This document shows positions 1,702 to 17,483 of a DNA stretch of 30,484 nt, in pieces. The notes beneath the pieces are model-generated. The model made no database searches, was not told the DNA's origin, and worked only from the letters and a program-made list of their open reading frames with translations. The stretch comes from a virus. Each line of letters opens with the position of its first letter. The first letter of the stretch is position 1. Made by a program: the position numbers and the translations under genes. Location: positions 1-30,484 of IMG/VR virus record IMGVR_UViG_3300043399_000382; one strand, 5' to 3'.

Positions 1702-2973
1702 CTAGCGCGTTTTCGCGCCAAGTAATTTCTCCGACAGCTCGGCCAGACGTTCTGGCACGCTGCGCGCTGGGCGCGTGATCTGCTCGGTACGCTTGAGCGT
1801 AGTACCGCTGGATGGCGCGCGCTCGACGTAGTGCTTCGGCAGTGCGATGTCGCGCGCCTTTAGCACCTTTTCGATCTGCGTGGGCGATTTCAGTTTGCGC
1901 TCGGCCCACTCGTCCATCCTGATGCGGTGGCGCTTGAAGAACAGCTTCAGCAGGCGCGGCTCCACCGCCCACTTGCGGTTGCCCTCTGGCTTCGCCTGCA
2001 GGCCCCAGCCCGCGATCTTGTTGCCCTGCTCGGCATATGCGTGGGCCTGCGCAAACACCTCATCGACCAGTGGCCCAACCAATTCGGCCATTTCCAGCAA
2101 CTCGGCATAACGCTGCGCCCAGTCAAGGCGATCCTCTGGCGATCCATTCGATGCCGCCTTGGCCTCGTTCAGCTTGGCCAGCTTTTTGCCCAGCTCACCG
2201 AAGGCGTTGATGTGCAGCGGGCAGACTGTCTTGCAGCGCGCAAACGTACACCAGCTCCCCTTGGCGCAGCGCGCATCGTCGGTCTGTGCCTCGGCCACGG
2301 CGGCGTGCAGCTCGGCCACGTAATCCTCGACCCGTGCCACGTCGGTCGTCCATGACTGCACGATGTCGCGCCCCTGCGCCTCATTGGCAGGCTGGATGAT
2401 CACCAGCGTGACTGGCGTGTCATACTGCACCTTACCCAGCCACGTCTTTTCAGTGTTCAGTGCGCCAGCGCCATAGAATAGCAACTGCTTGTTCTCGTCC
2501 GCCGCCACCAAGCCGTGCCCAAATTTCCAGTCGACCACGAAAATCTCATCGCCGCAGCGCCCGATAATGTCCGACGTGCCAAACGCTCCCTTGATCTGGG
2601 GAAACTCCACGCGGCGCTCGACCAGCAGCCGCATCAGCTCGCCGTTTTTGGCCTCTACCTTTGCCACGAAGGCATCAAACGCGGCCAGTGCAGGCTCGCC
2701 CTTCGCGTCCCACAGGGCTTGGTCAACCGTGAACGACCAGCCCTGCGGCGCGGTGAAGGTGTACGGCAGCATGTCAGTCGGCTCGATGCTGTCGCGCAGT
2801 GCCATCGCCATCAGCTCGTGCAAGGCCGTGCCCTCGCGGGCATATACACTGCCGACATCGTTGCGTGGCACAAGTTTTTCCAGCCTATAGCTGGCGGGGC
2901 AGCCAATGCGGCGCGCGGCGGTAGATCCGCCCACCACGTCGCTGTGTTCTTCGGGGGTGATGTGCTGGGTCAT
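1702..2973 (-). CDS. DUF2800-type PD-(D/E)XK nuclease
   Basis: This encodes 423 residues from the ATG at 2973, which has an AGAGGTGA Shine-Dalgarno and overlaps the preceding stop as ATGA. An in-frame GTG at 2991 is less likely. The nuclease core is visible: GTALHE (His52-Glu53), GTSDIIG with Asp135, and VVDWK with Asp148 and Lys150. Together these match the RecB/Cas4-like PD-(D/E)XK fold. A later cysteine group (Cys236, Cys242, Cys247, Cys251, around GSWCTFARC) resembles the metal or iron-sulfur site of Cas4/AddB-type nucleases. DUF2800 proteins recur in phage replication cassettes with family A polymerases and are thought to act as recombination exonucleases; no activity is shown here. Its neighbours are the putative DNA-binding protein downstream and the alpha-CTD-like protein upstream. 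Confidence 0.88.
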   Translation of the reverse strand: MTQHITPEEHSDVVGGSTAARRIGCPASYRLEKLVPRNDVGSVYAREGTALHELMAMALRDSIEPTDMLPYTFTAPQGWSFTVDQALWDAKGEPALAAFDAFVAKVEAKNGELMRLLVERRVEFPQIKGAFGTSDIIGRCGDEIFVVDWKFGHGLVAADENKQLLFYGAGALNTEKTWLGKVQYDTPVTLVIIQPANEAQGRDIVQSWTTDVARVEDYVAELHAAVAEAQTDDARCAKGSWCTFARCKTVCPLHINAFGELGKKLAKLNEAKAASNGSPEDRLDWAQRYAELLEMAELVGPLVDEVFAQAHAYAEQGNKIAGWGLQAKPEGNRKWAVEPRLLKLFFKRHRIRMDEWAERKLKSPTQIEKVLKARDIALPKHYVERAPSSGTTLKRTEQITRPARSVPERLAELSEKLLGAKTR

Positions 2974-3458
2974 AGTGTCACCTCTGGCCACTCGTACATC
3001 GTATTATGTCGCGGGCCAACGCTGCGCTGAAATGGTGTCTCAGTTGGGCTTACGCTCTCCAATGCCTGCCGCAACTCACGCATTCTTTGTGCATCCCTTG
3101 ACACCTTTTCCGCGTCTTCATCGGACAGCAGACTAAGCTGAATTGCCAGCTCACGAATGTATTCGGCCTTCACGCCCAACGACACCGTAGGGTCAGCGTA
3201 AGCGCCCCGTAAAATCTCCTCAATCACTTGGTTGAACCGCGCAAGAGTTTTTTTGCCCATAAAAGGCCACCCCAACATCGCCCGTCTATCTAAGCGCGCA
3301 AGGTCGTCGATGGTCACATTTTCCCACGATTTGATTTTGATCCTAGTCAACCCGTACTCATACGAACCGTCAAAATAATTCATTAAGCAATGTTTCAGCC
3401 GTGCCGAGACGCCGTCGCCCGCGCATCCCCAAACAATATCTTTCGCCATCATGGTCAT
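2970..3458 (-). CDS. Small protein with RNA polymerase alpha-CTD-like region
   Basis: This encodes 162 residues. The ATG at 3458 overlaps the preceding stop as ATGA and follows a GCGGGG stretch. Residues about 37-84 read like the helix-hairpin-helix C-terminal domain of the RNA polymerase alpha subunit: a short hydrophobic strand and helix (GLTRIKIKSWENVTIDDLARL, abbreviated here to its ends GLTRI and DDLARL), then a loop, MGKKTLARF and NQVIEEIL. The GKKTL element corresponds to the GKKSL of alpha-CTD. The rest is charged and helical with no other recognised motif. Base composition is less GC-rich than the neighbours. A host-transcription or DNA-contacting role is an inference from this resemblance. 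A plain DNA-binding HhH protein is the alternative. Confidence 0.8.
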   Translation of the reverse strand: MTMMAKDIVWGCAGDGVSARLKHCLMNYFDGSYEYGLTRIKIKSWENVTIDDLARLDRRAMLGWPFMGKKTLARFNQVIEEILRGAYADPTVSLGVKAEYIRELAIQLSLLSDEDAEKVSRDAQRMRELRQALESVSPTETPFQRSVGPRHNTMYEWPEVTL

Positions 3459-3710: not shown

Positions 3711-3994
3711 TAGAGGAATATTTGCGGCAGCGTGTAGAGGTGCTGGGTGGGGTGTGCATAAAACTATCCCCAGTGGGGTTGCGTGGAGTACCTGATCGTC
3801 TTATAGTGCTGTCAGGGCCGCGCGTGGTGTTCGTCGAGTTAAAGCGACCAGCGGGCGGGGTCATATCAAAACTGCAGCACTGGTGGCGCGCGCGCCTATT
3901 GGCGCTGGGCTGTGAGCATCACTTTATCAAGACGCGGGCCGAGGTGGACGCGCTAATGGGAGGAACGCAAGATGAGAGACAACGACAGGATTGA
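3689..3994 (+). CDS. VRR-NUC domain nuclease
   Basis: This encodes 101 residues from the ATG at 3689, preceded by GGAG at 3678-3681. The small PD-(D/E)XK core of the VRR-NUC family is complete: GVPD with Asp36, VFVELKRP with Glu50 and Lys52, and Gln63 in SKLQHWW. Stand-alone phage VRR-NUC proteins are predicted structure-selective nucleases, for example for branched DNA made during recombination, with dimerisation suggested by their small size. It opens the rightward replication operon. It overlaps the next gene by 23 bases. The reading frame is open further upstream, but the ribosome site and the divergent gene make 3689 the best start. Confidence 0.92.
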   Translation: MAQREASIEEYLRQRVEVLGGVCIKLSPVGLRGVPDRLIVLSGPRVVFVELKRPAGGVISKLQHWWRARLLALGCEHHFIKTRAEVDALMGGTQDERQRQD

Positions 3995-4262
3995 CATAAG
4001 CCAAGATGCGTGGGGCGAAATTTTGACGACCGTCAAGGAGATGTCAGATCGCATTGCTGATTTAATTATCGAGCATGAGCTAGACCCGCGCGCCGCCGTT
4101 GCCTTGGCTGGCGCGATCGCGGGCATGGTTAACGATTTCGCGGAGCCTTGCACATGCAATGGCTGCCTGACCGCCACCATGATGCTAGTTGACGCATTCC
4201 TTACCGATCTGGGCCAGATTGATGTCGATCTAGACACCCTCATGTCGAAGGGACGCGCCTGA
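3972..4262 (+). CDS. Unknown small protein upstream of DNA polymerase
   Basis: This encodes 96 residues from the ATG at 3972, following GGAGGAACGCAAG, a strong ribosome site inside the end of the VRR-NUC gene. Its stop overlaps the polymerase start. The sequence is mostly helical, with an acidic N-terminus, a small Ala-rich hydrophobic helix (AAVALAGAIAGMV) and a CTCNGC cysteine cluster with two close cysteines. No family is recognised. Tight coupling on both sides suggests a replication-associated accessory role, which is inference only. Confidence 0.8.
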   Translation: MRDNDRIDISQDAWGEILTTVKEMSDRIADLIIEHELDPRAAVALAGAIAGMVNDFAEPCTCNGCLTATMMLVDAFLTDLGQIDVDLDTLMSKGRA

Positions 4263-6418
4263 TGTACGACATTGACAATCTGTGTTTCATCGACACCGAG
4301 ACGCTGTCGCGCGCTGACCTAAAGGCCACTGGCATCTACCCATATAGCAGCGACCCTGCCTTTCGGGTTATGATCGTCACATACGCAATAGGCGATGGGC
4401 CTGTGCAAATCTGGAAGCAGGATCGCGCGCACCTCGGCGCGTGGCTGGATTGGAACGACGCGCCCGATGACCTGCTGACGTTTCTGGAACGGGTCGAGGC
4501 GGGCGAGGCTCATTTCGTGGCGTGGAATGCGGCCTTCGACCGCCTCGCCCTGTCGCGCGGCATCAAGGGGTACAGCAACGCCAAGCCTGAGCATTTTATG
4601 GATGCGATGGTGCAGGCCGTGCGCTCGCACCTGCCGCCAGATCTGGCCAGTGCTGGCCGCGTCACGCACGCCGCAATTCAAAAACGGCCCGACGGCAAGC
4701 GCCTGATCCAAAAATTCTGCGTGCCGCCCTTCGCCGACCCTGCCGAGCATCCTGCGGAGTGGGACGCGTTCACGTTGTACGCGCTGGATGACGTCCCGCC
4801 CCTGCGGGCCGTCTGGCAGGCCACCCTGCCCCTGTCGGACTTGGCGTGGCAGCAGTACTGGGCCAGCGAGCATATCAACGACGCGGGCATGCCCGTGGAC
4901 GTGGAGTTTGCCGAGAAGGCGGGCGAGCTGGCCATCGAGAACGCGCGGCGCGCCGACTTCGATATCCACCGCCTCACTGGCGGTGCGATCAAGACCGTCA
5001 ACCAGCACGTGGCGCTGTGCGACTGGGTGGTGGCGCGCATCGGACATATGTCCGAGGCCGTGGCCATCCTGCTGCGCGATGTGGTCGAGGAGCAGGACGA
5101 GGCGGGCGATGGCATCACGCGCCTCGATACGTACTCGCTGGAGCGCAGCCGTGTCGAGGATCTGATCGCGTACATGGAGCGCATCGGCGGCGAGCGCGGC
5201 CTGACTGATGACGAGATCGCGGTGCTTGAGGTGCTGCGCGTCCGCGCCTTCGGCGCATCGGCAACGCCCAAGAAATTCGTCAAGCTGCTGCCGATGGTGT
5301 CCGAGGGCGACCGCCTGCGCGGCCAGTACGTGTACTACGGCGCGGCTGCCACGGGGCGTTTCTCGTCTCGCGGGCTGCAGATCCACAACTTGGCTCGCGC
5401 CACTGTGGGTAAGCAGGACGTGGAGCTGGCCGTCATCGATAAGATCTTGGACGGCGCGTCATACGACGACCTGACGCAATACGGCCCCGTGGGTCGCACC
5501 CTGTCGCGCCTGATCCGCCCCGTGTTCGTCGCCCCTGATGGGTACAAGATGCTGTGGGCGGACTATAGCGCCATCGAGGCGCGCGTCTTGCCGTGGCTCG
5601 GCGAGGCCTTCGGCGCTGGGCCTGTGCTGGATATCTTCCGCGAGAACGATGCCGACCCCTCGCTGCCTGATATCTACAAGCAGCAGGCTGGCTCGATCCT
5701 CAATAAGGATCCCAGAGAGGTGACCAAGGCCGAGCGCCAGAGCCACGGCAAGGTTCCCGTGCTGTCGCTGGGCTTCGGCGGCGGCAAGGGCGCGCTCTTT
5801 GCGATGGCGCGAAACTATGGCGCGTCGTTCACCGACGACGAGGCGGGCGACATCGTGGAAAAGTGGCGCGCGACAAACCCGTGGGCGCGCCGCTATTGGG
5901 ATGATACGTGGGAAGCCGCGATCTGGTGCATGCACAACCACAACCAACTGCGCCCCGTCGGCAGCCGCCTGCACTATGTGTACCTGCCCGACTATATGCA
6001 CGGCACGTTGGCCTGCATCCTGCCCAATGGCGAGCCGCTGCTGTACCCGATGCTGCGCTGGGAGATGCGCGAGCGTAAAGACAAGGCCACGGGCAAGGTC
6101 GAGGTGCGCGAGCAGCTCACCTATCGGCGCGGCTATGGGCGCGCGGCCCTGTGGTACGGAACGCTGGTCGAGAATGCGGTGCAGGCCGTCGCGGGCGCTA
6201 TCCTCAAGAATGCGCTCTTGTGCCTGCACCAGACCAACCCACAACTGGTGGTGGGTCACACTCACGATGAGGTCATCGCCCTGTGCCCGACACCAGATGT
6301 AGCGGATGGCCGCGCCGCGCTCGTGCGTGCTATGCTGGCCCTTCCCGACTGGGCTGGAGGGCTGCCGATGACGTGTGAGGCCAGCGAGAGCTTCTATTAT
6401 ACCAAAACAATCGACTGA
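4262..6418 (+). CDS. Family A DNA polymerase with 3'-5' exonuclease domain
   Basis: This encodes 718 residues, the usual size of phage polymerases that lack the 5' nuclease. The N-terminal proofreading domain shows Exo I IDTET (Asp11, Glu13), Exo II WNAAFD (Asp93) and Exo III YALDD (Tyr173, Asp176/177). The polymerase domain shows motif A ADYSAIEAR with Asp434, a motif B region RQSHGKVPVLSLGFGGG, and motif C HTHDEV with Asp669. All catalytic acids are present, so the enzyme should be active. It replicates the phage genome together with the primase-helicase encoded 11 bases downstream. The start at 4262 overlaps the preceding stop in TGATG. The motif B lysine spacing differs from Pol I, as is common in this phage subgroup. 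Confidence 0.96.
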   Translation: MYDIDNLCFIDTETLSRADLKATGIYPYSSDPAFRVMIVTYAIGDGPVQIWKQDRAHLGAWLDWNDAPDDLLTFLERVEAGEAHFVAWNAAFDRLALSRGIKGYSNAKPEHFMDAMVQAVRSHLPPDLASAGRVTHAAIQKRPDGKRLIQKFCVPPFADPAEHPAEWDAFTLYALDDVPPLRAVWQATLPLSDLAWQQYWASEHINDAGMPVDVEFAEKAGELAIENARRADFDIHRLTGGAIKTVNQHVALCDWVVARIGHMSEAVAILLRDVVEEQDEAGDGITRLDTYSLERSRVEDLIAYMERIGGERGLTDDEIAVLEVLRVRAFGASATPKKFVKLLPMVSEGDRLRGQYVYYGAAATGRFSSRGLQIHNLARATVGKQDVELAVIDKILDGASYDDLTQYGPVGRTLSRLIRPVFVAPDGYKMLWADYSAIEARVLPWLGEAFGAGPVLDIFRENDADPSLPDIYKQQAGSILNKDPREVTKAERQSHGKVPVLSLGFGGGKGALFAMARNYGASFTDDEAGDIVEKWRATNPWARRYWDDTWEAAIWCMHNHNQLRPVGSRLHYVYLPDYMHGTLACILPNGEPLLYPMLRWEMRERKDKATGKVEVREQLTYRRGYGRAALWYGTLVENAVQAVAGAILKNALLCLHQTNPQLVVGHTHDEVIALCPTPDVADGRAALVRAMLALPDWAGGLPMTCEASESFYYTKTID

Positions 6419-6429
6419 GGGGTGGAACC

Positions 6430-8925
6430 ATGGATCGTGATCAAGAAATACGGCAGCAGACGGCGTTGCGCCGCGCCATGCTGCGCAATGGGTATACCCC
6501 ATTGGCAAACAAGGATAAGGGATGCATCCTAAAAGGTTGGCCCAATCTGGCTGTCGACGAATACCAAATTGACGTGTGGTCTGACCAGCTCAGGTGGCGG
6601 GCCACGGGCGTGCGCATCGAGCGCGGGCTGGTGGCGATTGATTTGGATATCAACGACAACGCGGCCATCTGGGATATCATTGACGCGCTTCCTAACGACA
6701 TCTGGGAGCTGCTATCGAATGCGCCCGTGCGGCTGGGCAAGGGGGCCAAGGAGTGCTGGTTCTGCCGCCTCGCCGAGGGCGAGAGTAGCTTCTACCGCCT
6801 GACCTCGGCGGGGTATCGCATGCCCGACGACGCTGACGATGGTGTCGTCCACCGCGTCGAGATCTTCGCGGGCGAGACGGGGCGACAGTTTGGCGTGTAC
6901 GGCGCGCACACCATCGGCCACGATGGCGAGGTCGAGGTGGCCTACCGCTGGGTCGATGATCGCGGGCTGGCCGATGTGCCATTCGACGATCTGCCGCGCC
7001 TGACGCGCGCGCAGCTTGCCGTGGTGGCCGACACCGCGTCGCGTGTGATGGCCGATGCGGGCTGGGTCAATGATGCCCAGTCAAAGGCGGGCTTTACCTC
7101 ACCAAGCGTGGTGTATGATCTGGACGATCAGGTTTTTGATACGCGCGACCACGGCACTGTCGATCTAGAGCAGCTAGAGGTATTGGCTGCCGAGAATGAC
7201 AACGTGCGCCTGTCCGCATCGTGGCTGGAAGGGCCGAGCGCGGCCAACACCACGCGCTGCATCGCCTATATCAACCGCAGCGACAATCGCGTGGCGATCT
7301 TGGAGACGGCGGCGTACACGACGCACCGCCCAGTCTCGCTGCAGCCCAAGCCCCTGAACACTGGCGCGCTGGATCGCCTAGAAGCACTGGCGGGCGGTAG
7401 CACGCTGTTTGACAAGCCTGCGCCAGCGCCTGCCGCCGAGAGCGCGCAGGTGGGCATCGACATGCGCGACGACATGGAGCGCGTCGTCGATCACCTGATC
7501 GGCGAGGTGGCCTTTTGCGCCAATGAGCAGAAGTGTGTCATGCCGATTGATGGCGATGCCTCGCAGGCCATGACCATGGCCAACTTCCGCGTGCTGATGC
7601 AGCCCAGCGCCGTCGAGGTGCGCGGCCCGCGCGGCGGATCTCAGATCATACACCCCGTGTCTCTGTGGGCCAGCGACCCGCGCCGCATCGACGTGAATGG
7701 CCACCGCTTCCGCCCCGATCTGGCGGGGCAGCGGCTGTTTATCGAGGACGGCGCGCGGTACATCAACACGTACCGCCCCATCGATCACGTCCCCGTGAGC
7801 GATGCGCAGGTGGCGGCGGCTGGGCGTGCCTTCGAGGCGCTGCTGTCACACCTCGTGCCGCACGACGAGGCGCGTGCGTGGTTCCGCATGTGGCTGGCCA
7901 GCAAGATACAATACCCTGCCACGCCCAACTGCGGCGTGATCATGGTGGCCGAGATCCAAGGCACTGGCCGCGGCACGCTGTTCGATATGATGTCAGCGGC
8001 GCTGGGCCAGAAGTACGTGCGCAACATCAGCAGCACTGAGCTGATGGGCGGGCAGGGGCAGGGCCAGTACAACGACTGGATCGCCAACGCCCTGCTGGTG
8101 CTGTGCGAGGAAGTCATGGCGGGCGATGACGCGGGCGGCGCAATGGCGTGGAAGCGCCGCGAGGTGTACGAGCGCCTCAAGCAGCTTGTCGACCCGCGCC
8201 AGCGCGTCATGGAGATCCGCCGCAAGGGCCTGAGCAATTACTCGTCAGAGGTCTTCGCGTCGATCCTGATGGCCACCAACCACATGAACGCCCTGCCGCT
8301 GGACGAGACTGACCGCCGCATCGCCGTGCTGGTGCAGCCGAACATCAAGTTTGATGACGTGCCCGAATTGGTGCGCCTGATCAATCCGATGCGCGCCAGC
8401 GGGCGGTACGTGCCGTGGTTCGGCGCTGGGCTGGCCGCGTACCTGAGCGGCGTGGCCGTTGACACCTCGGCCCTGCGCATCGCGCCAGAACTGGGCGATG
8501 GCCGCGCATTGATGCGTGAGAGCAACCTCAGCGATCTGGATCACATCTTGGCCGAGGTGCTGGATGACATCCCCGCCGACTTCATTGGCAACGCGGCGCT
8601 CAAGCGCCGCCTCGCCAATGCCCTGACGGCGGCGGGCGAGATCGACAGCATGCGAAACTGGTGGATGCGCGCGCAGGACATCTTGAAGCGGCCAAACGGT
8701 ACGGGCTGGGCGCGCATGGGCACGCGACAAGTGACGGGCGGCAATGCCAACAAGCGAACCTTCGAGAATGTATTGTACCGAATCGATGGGGCGGGTCTGG
8801 ATAAGTGGGCGATGATGACGTGGGAAGAGCGGGCCGTGGTTATGGCGCGGGCCAATGACGCCAACGATATCGCCACGCGCATCGATCGCGGCCTGCGTGA
8901 CCACGGCATTCACGGCGTGACTTGA
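6430..8925 (+). CDS. Primase-polymerase fused to SF3 (DUF5906-type) helicase
   Basis: This encodes 831 residues with two modules. Residues about 10-200 resemble an AEP prim-pol domain: VAIDLDIND carries the metal-binding Asp71 and Asp73, and EIFAGETGRQFGVYGAH matches the conserved later strand with its histidine. The C-terminal half matches DUF5906-type superfamily 3 helicases: EIQGTGRGTLF (P-loop), LLVLCEEVM (Walker B), and ILMATNHMNALPL (sensor 1 asparagine), followed by RRIAVL. The P-loop lysine is replaced by Arg514, which is odd for an ATPase. The protein should prime and unwind at the fork beside the polymerase. GGGTGGAACC precedes the ATG. It is the last gene of the rightward replication operon, and a terminator follows at 9005-9040. 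Confidence 0.92.
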   Translation: MDRDQEIRQQTALRRAMLRNGYTPLANKDKGCILKGWPNLAVDEYQIDVWSDQLRWRATGVRIERGLVAIDLDINDNAAIWDIIDALPNDIWELLSNAPVRLGKGAKECWFCRLAEGESSFYRLTSAGYRMPDDADDGVVHRVEIFAGETGRQFGVYGAHTIGHDGEVEVAYRWVDDRGLADVPFDDLPRLTRAQLAVVADTASRVMADAGWVNDAQSKAGFTSPSVVYDLDDQVFDTRDHGTVDLEQLEVLAAENDNVRLSASWLEGPSAANTTRCIAYINRSDNRVAILETAAYTTHRPVSLQPKPLNTGALDRLEALAGGSTLFDKPAPAPAAESAQVGIDMRDDMERVVDHLIGEVAFCANEQKCVMPIDGDASQAMTMANFRVLMQPSAVEVRGPRGGSQIIHPVSLWASDPRRIDVNGHRFRPDLAGQRLFIEDGARYINTYRPIDHVPVSDAQVAAAGRAFEALLSHLVPHDEARAWFRMWLASKIQYPATPNCGVIMVAEIQGTGRGTLFDMMSAALGQKYVRNISSTELMGGQGQGQYNDWIANALLVLCEEVMAGDDAGGAMAWKRREVYERLKQLVDPRQRVMEIRRKGLSNYSSEVFASILMATNHMNALPLDETDRRIAVLVQPNIKFDDVPELVRLINPMRASGRYVPWFGAGLAAYLSGVAVDTSALRIAPELGDGRALMRESNLSDLDHILAEVLDDIPADFIGNAALKRRLANALTAAGEIDSMRNWWMRAQDILKRPNGTGWARMGTRQVTGGNANKRTFENVLYRIDGAGLDKWAMMTWEERAVVMARANDANDIATRIDRGLRDHGIHGVT

Positions 8926-9004: not shown

Positions 9005-9040
9005 AGGGTCGCACACGGGCGTGTGCGGCCCTTTCGTTTT
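9005..9040 (+). terminator. Rho-independent terminator after the replication operon
   Basis: A long stem is formed by AGGGTCGCACACG (9005-9017) and CGTGTGCGGCCCT (9020-9032), with one G-T pair and a tight G-rich loop. It is followed by TTCGTTTT. It lies 79 bases after the primase-helicase stop and would end rightward transcription before the origin region. Confidence 0.85.
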
Positions 9041-9041
9041 A

Positions 9042-9243
9042 CCGTAACACGTGCCTAATCTACGCCCCGTTTCCACATGGGCGGATGTTACGGCTGGGGC
9101 GCTAACATCGCGCCGCCAGAGGTCTTGCCGTAACATCGGTAACACGCGGTTGCGGTACATATTTGGTGCATGTTACGGCGCGTGTTACGGGGTTAAGTGC
9201 CTGATTTACATGGCTTAATCATTAGCCGTAACATCCGTAACAT
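9042..9243. repeat. Iteron cluster, seven exact CCGTAACA copies
   Basis: Exact copies of CCGTAACA lie at 9042-9049, 9128-9135, 9226-9233 and 9235-9242. Inverted copies (TGTTACGG) lie at 9086-9093, 9171-9178 and 9183-9190. Near-copies are visible at 9101-9109, 9137-9145 and 9339-9345. Several pairs are adjacent, which suggests cooperative binding by a replication initiator or regulator. The binding protein is unknown. Confidence 0.8.
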
Positions 9244-9320
9244 CAATATCTACTAACTATAGATAGGAGATATAGTATTAAATATATGTGTACTTATATG
9301 GTATACTGTATAGTTTATAT
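9244..9320. other. AT-rich tract beside the iterons, possible unwinding element
   Basis: This 77-base tract is mostly A and T (runs such as TATAGTATTAAATATATG), in sharp contrast to the GC-rich surroundings. It directly follows the last iteron pair. This is the position expected of a DNA unwinding element, although a strong AT-rich promoter zone is an alternative. Confidence 0.6.
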
Positions 9321-9490
9321 GGCGGTAGGGAATCGGCGTGTTACGTGTAACGGCTGATGCGGGTGACCCCGCGTGGCGCGCGGCGGTCTCGCAGCGCGGG
9401 CGGGGCCGACAACCGTGAGATCGCCAGCATCGAGAGCGCCGCGTGGTAAACTTGCCGTGTAACGCGACCACGTGGCATGATCACGCAGCG

Positions 9491-9577
9491 CGTGCCGACC
9501 TGATCGTGCCACGCGCCACGTGCCACGTGCCGACTTGATCGTGCCACGCAGCACGTTCCGACTTGATCGTGCCACGT
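9491..9577. repeat. Three 24-bp direct repeats with core TGATCGTGCCACG
   Basis: Units at 9491-9514, 9526-9549 and 9554-9577 differ from one another at only one to three positions. The starts are 35 and 28 bases apart. Each contains CCGACYTGATCGTGCCACG. Inverted near half-copies (GGCATGATCA at 9475-9484 and GGCACAATCA at 9648-9657) flank the array. These are likely protein-binding sites, separate from the CCGTAACA set. Confidence 0.75.
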
Positions 9578-9751
9578 ACCACGAAAACCTCTCTGCGAGG
9601 CACGCCGCCGCTCACGCGCGCGTGCGACGGCTCGATCGGTGCGTCAAGGCACAATCAACGTCTCGGTGTGCGTCCATGCACGTATCACGCAGCACGATGC
9701 ACCTGATCGGTAGCATGATATCGAGGGCTGTATCGTAAGCCATTGATATCA

Positions 9752-9779
9752 TTGACGTATGCAGCTTATCGCATATGAC
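9752..9779 (+). promoter_or_regulatory. Promoter-like sequence upstream of the late operon
   Basis: TTGACG (9752-9757) and TATGAC (9774-9779) are separated by 16 bases, with an alternative CATAAT immediately after. Transcription from here would cross the alternative hairpins at 9833-9863 before reaching the first late gene at 10032. Confidence 0.4.
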
Positions 9780-9832
9780 ATAATAGGGATTATCAGAACC
9801 CGACCCGCGTTTGCGCTGTTTTTCGGTGGAGA

Positions 9833-10319: not shown

Positions 10320-10787
10320 ATGGCGGGCAAGGCCTTACGCAAGCGCCTCTTTGCAGAGATTGAGACGCGCGGCGGCGCGGAGTATCTGCGGGATTACATC
10401 GCCGAGGGCGGCACGGTCTTGGATTTGGCCGACGAGCTGGGCTGCAGCCGCACGTATCTGAGCCGCCACCTGAATGCAGACCCAGACTATAAGGCCGCGC
10501 TCGACGAGGCGCGACGTGAGAATGCCGACAAGTTGGCCGACGAGGCGCTGAAGATCGCGGACGCGCTGGCCGATGTCGCTGATATCACCAAGGAGGATAT
10601 CGCCGTCGCCAAGGAGCGCATCGACGTGCGCAAGTGGCTGGCGACGGTCAACCACCCAGATCGGTATCAGCAGAACAAGAACGGGCCGACGATCACGCTG
10701 AACATCAACGCCCTGCATTTGGACGCCCTGCGCAAGGTCAGCAGGGGTGGCGACGACGCAAAACTTATCGGGGGGACAGACGAGTGA
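10320..10787 (+). CDS. terS: Terminase small subunit
   Basis: This encodes 155 residues. It has an N-terminal helix-turn-helix (residues about 30-55, VLDLADELGCSRTYLSRHL) of the type that binds packaging sites. A charged helical middle (ENADKLADEALKIADAL) and the segment ERIDVRKWLATVNHPDRY follow, both typical of phage TerS proteins in which the middle helices oligomerise. Its position two genes before TerL supports the call. It recognises the viral DNA and hands it to TerL. Its stop overlaps the following GTG start (GTGA). No strong Shine-Dalgarno precedes it, so coupling with the upstream gene is likely. Confidence 0.88.
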   Translation: MAGKALRKRLFAEIETRGGAEYLRDYIAEGGTVLDLADELGCSRTYLSRHLNADPDYKAALDEARRENADKLADEALKIADALADVADITKEDIAVAKERIDVRKWLATVNHPDRYQQNKNGPTITLNINALHLDALRKVSRGGDDAKLIGGTDE

Positions 10788-16763: not shown

Positions 16764-17483
16764 ATGGCGCTGTACCGTGGCGCGTATGGATTAAAGGCAT
16801 ATGGCATCGAGGCGTACGGCCTCGATGGCACGATCTTTGATGCCGCAGCCACGGCTGTCGCCGCCAGCGCGGCCACGGGGGCCGCCCAGCGCGTCAGGAT
16901 TGCGGCAGCAGCGGCGGCGGCCACCAGCGCCGCGACCACTGCCGCCCAGCGCATAAAACTGGCCGCAGCCACGGCAGCGGCCACCAGCACCGCCAGCGCG
17001 GCTGTCGTCACTCTAATCAACGCAGCGGCGGCCACCACGGCCACCAGCGCGGCCACGGGGGCCGCCCAGCGCGTGCAGCAGCCCAGCGCGGCGGCGGCAT
17101 CGGTCAGCGCGGCCACGGGGGCCGCCCAGCGCGTGCAGCAGCCCAGCGCCAACACGACAGGCCAGAGCAGTGTCACATCCCGCGCCGAGGCGGTGTACGA
17201 GGACAGCGCCAGCGTTGCGGGGCAGAGCGCGGCTGACGCGCGCGTGGTGCGAGTTTTCTCCACTGGCGCGAATGCCTCGGCATCTGCTATAGTATCGATC
17301 AAGGCCATCCTGAAATGGGAGGGCGCGACACCGCAGGCCGAGAACTGGACAGCGCAGGGCGCTACAGCCGAGGACTGGATAGCCGAGACAGCCGACGGCG
17401 CGGCATGGTCGCCGCAGGCGGCGCAGGGCGAAACTTGGACAACCGAAACCGCGTCGAGTGAGACGTGGACGCGGGCAGCTTGA
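16764..17483 (+). CDS. Alanine-rich tandem-repeat virion protein with Trp-repeat tail
   Basis: This encodes 239 residues in three parts. The N-terminus has short AYGL/AYGI/AYGL repeats. Then come seven 20-residue units (bases 16860-17279), best seen as ATSAATGAAQRVQQ followed by PSAAAA; the last two units have diverged. The C-terminus has six tryptophans (residues 185 to 235) exactly ten residues apart. The composition suggests an extended fibrous or coiled structure. Its place between a minor virion protein and the tail fibre suggests a tail or fibre-linking part. I recognise no family for the whole. The start has only a weak AAGG upstream and probably relies on coupling. Confidence 0.8.
   Translation: MALYRGAYGLKAYGIEAYGLDGTIFDAAATAVAASAATGAAQRVRIAAAAAAATSAATTAAQRIKLAAATAAATSTASAAVVTLINAAAATTATSAATGAAQRVQQPSAAAASVSAATGAAQRVQQPSANTTGQSSVTSRAEAVYEDSASVAGQSAADARVVRVFSTGANASASAIVSIKAILKWEGATPQAENWTAQGATAEDWIAETADGAAWSPQAAQGETWTTETASSETWTRAA
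16860..17279 (+). repeat. Seven 60-bp in-frame tandem units
   Basis: The units start at 16860, 16920, 16980, 17040, 17100, 17160 and 17220. The fourth and fifth units share a 45-base identical block (17045-17089 and 17105-17149), and 30 bases of it recur at 16865-16894. This points to recent duplication within an older array. Confidence 0.85.

Follow-up and report, generated by a model that had tools for sequence, protein, structure and literature searches.

The locus examined here raises a simple question: what does a compact array of 8-base repeats do just downstream of a primase-helicase gene, and which protein reads it? The window, by which we mean the whole stretch of DNA analysed, is a linear fragment of viral DNA, 30,484 bases long (IMGVR_UViG_3300043399_000382), that carries terminase, portal and tail-type genes and is thus not a phage-inducible island. 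A preliminary description read the array as an iteron-type replication origin.

Repeat array and neighbouring features

The following features of the window enter the argument.

4262-6418, plus strand: family A DNA polymerase gene (Pfam DNA_pol_A, 4e-12; PHROG 17, 1e-69)
6430-8925, plus strand: primase-helicase gene, 831 aa, proposed initiator (Pfam DUF5906, 1.1e-15; PHROG 1156, DNA primase)
8497-8805, plus strand: C-terminal domain of the primase-helicase, residues 690-792, predicted winged helix and proposed iteron reader (AlphaFold2 topology)
9005-9040, plus strand: hairpin (arms 9005-9017 and 9020-9032) followed by the T-rich run CCCTTTCGTTTT, probable terminator of the polymerase/primase operon
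9042-9242, both orientations: left iteron cluster, seven exact copies of CCGTAACA plus the near-copy at 9137+
9243-9320, no strand assigned: AT-rich tract, 78 bp and 78% AT, proposed melting site
9339-9353, minus strand: right iteron pair, two one-mismatch copies, opposite in orientation to the inner left pair
10320-10787, plus strand: terminase small subunit (TerS) gene (Sf6_terminase, 2.9e-11)

A scan of the whole record located the exact copies of CCGTAACA at 9042+, 9086-, 9128+, 9171-, 9183-, 9226+ and 9235+. The remainder of the 30,484-bp record, outside 9042-9242, holds none; scattering of the motif at operators, which the preliminary description had named as evidence against an origin, is therefore not seen. 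Chance would supply 0.49 copies (s.d. 0.75; maximum of 3 among 100 shuffles), and the densest 8-mer of any word per 250 bp reached 3 in 29 and 4 in one of 30 whole-window dinucleotide shuffles, against the seven observed. Copies with one mismatch lie at 9137+ (CGGTAACA), 9339- and 9346-, and same-strand neighbouring sites include spacings of 9-12 bp. The count, the shuffles and the mismatch scan together bear out the original report of seven exact copies in both orientations and three near-copies; the cluster itself stands, while its end moves to 9353, slightly past the 9345 first given. The sole other 8-mer cluster of equal density in the window consists of Ala-rich coding repeats at 16.86-17.13 kb, within which ARAGORN places a minus-strand tRNA-Ile(tat) at 16916-16983, probably a false call.

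The AT-rich tract noted beside the repeats is confirmed and contains the record's AT-richest 70-bp stretch. The module of the window comprises eight left iterons, the AT tract and an opposed iteron pair on the right. The terminator proposed upstream of the array also fits the hairpin arms and T-rich run, although a generic terminator scan did not list the hairpin at 9005-9032 among its calls.

Two further elements were noticed downstream. A second repeat patch at 9468-9700 is built of 28-35 bp units rich in CGTGCCACG, and relatives carry other tandem repeats at the matching place, for example GCACCAGA seven times every 14 bp in L058 and CACGCACC five times in L016. At ~9769-9800 a CATATnACATAAT-N5/6-TTATCGGA-like motif, kept in relatives, looks, on visual inspection, like a Xer/dif recombination site.

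Selective conservation in close relatives

The word CCGTAACA is common to the window and three close relatives, L010 (100% protein identity across the matched part), L009 (85%) and L008 (83%). Comparison with related phages, a check proposed in the preliminary description, favoured a functional array: when the window was aligned with L009 and L008, 51 of 56 bases in exact iterons were invariant (91%), against 55 of 137 spacer bases (40%; Fisher, 1.4e-11). Drift is greater in the AT tract (56% invariant) and in the DNA downstream (29%) than in the iterons, and the order and orientation of the sites are preserved in both relatives. From this alignment we conclude that the repeats are under purifying selection.

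The upstream gene and its product

The array begins 117 bp past the end of the primase-helicase gene. An SF3/D5-type DUF5906 helicase occupies residues 509-630 of the 831-aa product, whose top fold match, and closest structural counterpart, is the C-terminal region of the NrS-1 primase-polymerase (6k9e, E 4.5e-12), followed by poxvirus D5/E5; the profile match to NrS-1 is 1.6e-19. The helicase is therefore of the DUF5906/SF3 kind found in NrS-1 and D5, and not the SF4 gp4-type helicase-primase of T7. Pfam Prim-Pol gave no significant match for the window protein and weak, below-cut-off N-terminal matches in the relatives L035 and L048; the N-terminal region is called PrimPol from relatives and sequence motifs.

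Two AlphaFold2 models give the C-terminal domain a helix-strand-helix-helix-strand-strand topology, with a mean pLDDT of 76.5 for the domain modelled alone and a moderate 66 for the full protein. A Foldseek search with this domain alone returned no significant matches; in a second look its structural neighbours were mostly winged-helix proteins, with middling Z scores of up to 7.8. We thus predict a winged helix, matched by topology only. Two small ORFs in the replication region (2970-3458 and 3972-4262), considered as alternative initiators, had no Pfam or PHROG match at the stated cut-offs.

These features alter two points of the preliminary description. It had seen no dedicated initiator nearby, whereas the gene ending 117 bp upstream encodes an SF3 primase-helicase with a predicted C-terminal winged helix. 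It had also held an iteron origin to be unusual for such a phage, on the assumption of a T7-type SF4 helicase-primase; because the replicase is not of that type, the surprise falls away. With an SF3 primase-helicase, known relatives would lead one to expect an iteron origin in just this place.

The same layout in other phages

An unbiased scan for clustered 8-mers was applied to the loci of relatives. In most of those examined, this gene is immediately followed by an iteron array, the AT-richest stretch of the contig, or both, and the repeat word is lineage-specific: GGTGTTGTG in L014 and L015; GGTGTTGAG in L016, L017 and L058; GACTACAC in L018; GGTACTCA in L035 and TGGTGACA in L036 (nine copies each); CTTGTGTC in L037 (ten) and GTACCTAC in L042 (eleven); CCCATCCC, TTGTTGCA and GGGACGCA in L040, L041 and L044; CCTACGCA in Serratia JS26; GACCCGGG in Nostoc and Microcystis phages; and AGGTGACG, seven times, in an Escherichia phage. 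The words of L034 and L045 were picked out visually, once the statistics had been done. A top-1% AT-richest region of the locus falls at most 580 bp from the gene end in 27 of 29 loci, not all of which are independent; the two exceptions, L016 and L059, have identical proteins and carry the AT tract and array ~500-800 bp past the gene. In L015 and L016 the array is retained despite a gene inserted between it and the helicase gene.

The inner arrangement also recurs, in that the last left pair has one orientation, the AT tract follows and the right pair has the opposite orientation. The commonest same-strand neighbour spacing across relatives is 9 bp, and the number and spacing of left-hand copies differ. 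An iteron array was not detectable in L020, L043, L047, L054 or L055, nor was one found within 580-700 bp in phages that encode a distant homologue of the primase (Vibrio K296, Alteromonas ZP6, Klebsiella RCIP0045 and Rhizobium RHph_X2_24).

Cumulative GC skew, in which the preliminary description had looked for a shift at the array, turns instead at ~3.6 kb, where operons diverge, and is unchanged at 9.0-9.4 kb; skew in the window follows gene direction and lends the origin reading no support. The skew minimum of Nostoc phage Nsp-JY18, at 6.4 kb, likewise falls at divergent operons and not at its array, which lies at 13.5 kb.

A nucleotide search of phage records gave short matches only, and searches for relatives with the L020 and Nostoc proteins yielded nothing new. 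Genome bins of Rhodobacter sp. and Natronohydrobacter sp. also contain primase relatives (L019 and L020, the L019 match covering the first 314 residues only), hinting at Rhodobacteraceae hosts. In L018, the family A polymerase ORF (806-2758) contains an intein-like-looking insertion (CLGADTLVATDGGW...IVHNC).

Which protein reads the repeats

Where primase and SF3 helicase are encoded by separate genes (L048, L049, L050 and L052), the array follows the helicase gene, and no array adjoins their PrimPol genes. In L052, eight copies of TACCGTCA surround the AT-richest stretch; L050, in which ORF position alone served to locate the helicase gene, has five copies, and L048/L049 have four.

The array also lies between the replication and packaging operons, and a single weak promoter-like match is found at 9205-9234, so it might be an operator array through which a phage or host transcription regulator controls the late operon or a leftward gene. 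However, the other promoters of the window have no copies and the promoter count is at chance level; an operator, which we consider very unlikely, would also leave unexplained both the layout around the AT tract and the link to the helicase gene across lineages, which holds even where neighbouring genes differ.

Small terminases are able to bind repeated sites, and terS lies nearby at 10320-10787. The repeats could accordingly be a packaging (pac/cos) site bound by the TerS encoded 1 kb downstream, an explanation that we regard as highly improbable. L014-L017 differ from the window in repeat word, and their helicases are only 41-43% identical to that of the window in the winged-helix domain, yet TerS is 69-75% identical and its recognition helix, ELGCSRTYLSRHLNA, is the same. 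Since this helix is unchanged where the repeat word has changed, TerS is unlikely to be the binder, and we rejected it as a candidate. No relative of the TerS of the window was found in the L018, L020 or Nostoc phage loci, and in L018 and the Nostoc phage the array nevertheless stays with the helicase gene. A more natural candidate for a terminase (pac/cos) site is an element at ~9585-9630 (AACCTCTCTGCGAGGCACGCCGCC...GCGCGTGCGA), which lies between the array and terS, is kept in L008, L009 and L014-L017, and is better conserved, with 38 of 45 bases invariant.

Taken together, these comparisons point to the helicase as the protein that reads the array. The repeat word and the C-terminal domain of the helicase appear to diverge together, which would make origin specificity particular to each phage.

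A structure-based origin, in which the feature that matters is a large stem-loop past the 3' end of the replicase gene (as proposed for plasmid pRN1 and phage BIP-1) and the repeats are by-products of the hairpin, is scarcely probable: although the strand folds better than shuffles (z -5.5), a long inverted repeat occupies the same place in L054/L055 and the pRN1 stem-loop is required for replication (PMC4234260), inverted copies of any iteron self-fold, the same-strand neighbours of the window and the varying number and spacing of left-hand copies among relatives argue against a hairpin, and the BPP-1 region has two direct iterons before an AT stretch and two inverted ones after it. The inverted repeat of L054/L055, which resembles the stem-loop described for pRN1 and BIP-1, lies 0-200 bases past position 7298, 3' of the replicase gene, with no obvious iterons.

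Comparison with known systems

Known precedents for an iteron origin beside its initiator gene are SaPI Rep, PICI rep-ori, P4 crr and SCCmec Cch2. The domain architecture predicted for the window protein is that of SaPI-type Rep, whose C-terminal domain binds iterons directly downstream of its own gene (PMC7581432, PMC6092414). The PICI/SaPI origins of SaPIbov1, SaPI5 and EcCICFT073 are likewise directly 3' of the Rep helicase gene (PMC6092414, PMC7581432). In layout and position the module of the window agrees with these published replicons, and it bears a resemblance to P4 crr. SaPI5 Rep also fuses primase and helicase, like the window protein, SaPI primases being of the AEP family. The window differs in being from a tailed phage that encodes a polymerase, terminase and portal of its own rather than from a satellite island, and in having its own iteron word.

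P4 crr similarly carries 8-bp iterons of both orientations immediately beyond the primase-helicase (alpha) gene and its terminator, and shares with the window direct pairs 9 bp apart and a TGTT core (TGTTCACC and TGTTACGG). P4 alpha, however, has a bacterial Toprim primase (PMC4234260), for which the window protein gave no match, and the P4 genome contains two iteron regions, ori and crr, against the one seen in the present fragment.

Among phages, BPP-1/BIP-1 is a podophage whose PrimPol-SF3 replicase gene is likewise followed by iteron pairs flanking an AT stretch: two TTGCCTCG-type iterons on either side, inverted. Unlike the window, BPP-1 has these two pairs only, and they are located after an inserted gene. 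Earlier work on replicases of this type proposed a stem-loop past the 3' end of the gene and dismissed iterons elsewhere (PMC4234260); in BPP-1, stem-loop and iterons may be two descriptions of one element. The NrS-1 genome carries an 8-nt priming site twice near its middle (PMC7102993) and, in contrast to the window, no described iteron array. The orf904 protein of pRN1 also combines primase, SF3 helicase and C-terminal winged helix, with an essential cis region directly downstream of its gene, but the pRN1 origin is a stem-loop without iterons.

Conclusions

We assign a probability of roughly 0.87 to 9042-9353 being the replication origin of this phage, or its main one. The occurrence of the same module 3' of the same gene in many distant relatives supports the iteron-type origin first proposed, very probably one of the self-loading-helicase type in a tailed phage, with the neighbouring primase-helicase as initiator. 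As the record is a fragment and P4 needs both ori and crr, a second origin elsewhere is possible. In the mechanism we propose, the C-terminal winged helix of the primase-helicase would bind the iterons; helicase rings would load at either end of the AT tract, open it and travel outwards; the primase region of the same protein would lay primers; and the phage family A polymerase would extend those made at the origin.

This layout has until now been best known from phage satellites and has been described as common to no other known replicon. Its broad spread in tailed phages is apparently unreported in the open-access literature covered here, although an earlier report may exist elsewhere, and such a fast-diverging distribution is more interesting than the single case. 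We see about even odds that many tailed phages with primase-SF3 replicases, most of them uncultured, use the satellite-type layout as their standard origin, and that word and C-terminal domain change together in them fast enough to have produced dozens of mutually distinct initiator-origin pairs, a possible source of satellite replicons. An unexplained repeat cluster thereby becomes a testable origin-initiator pair, and uncultured phages gain a rule for finding origins: inspect the DNA directly 3' of the SF3 helicase gene. The co-varying pairs of winged helix and iteron offer a natural series for the study of origin specificity and of competition between phages and their satellites.
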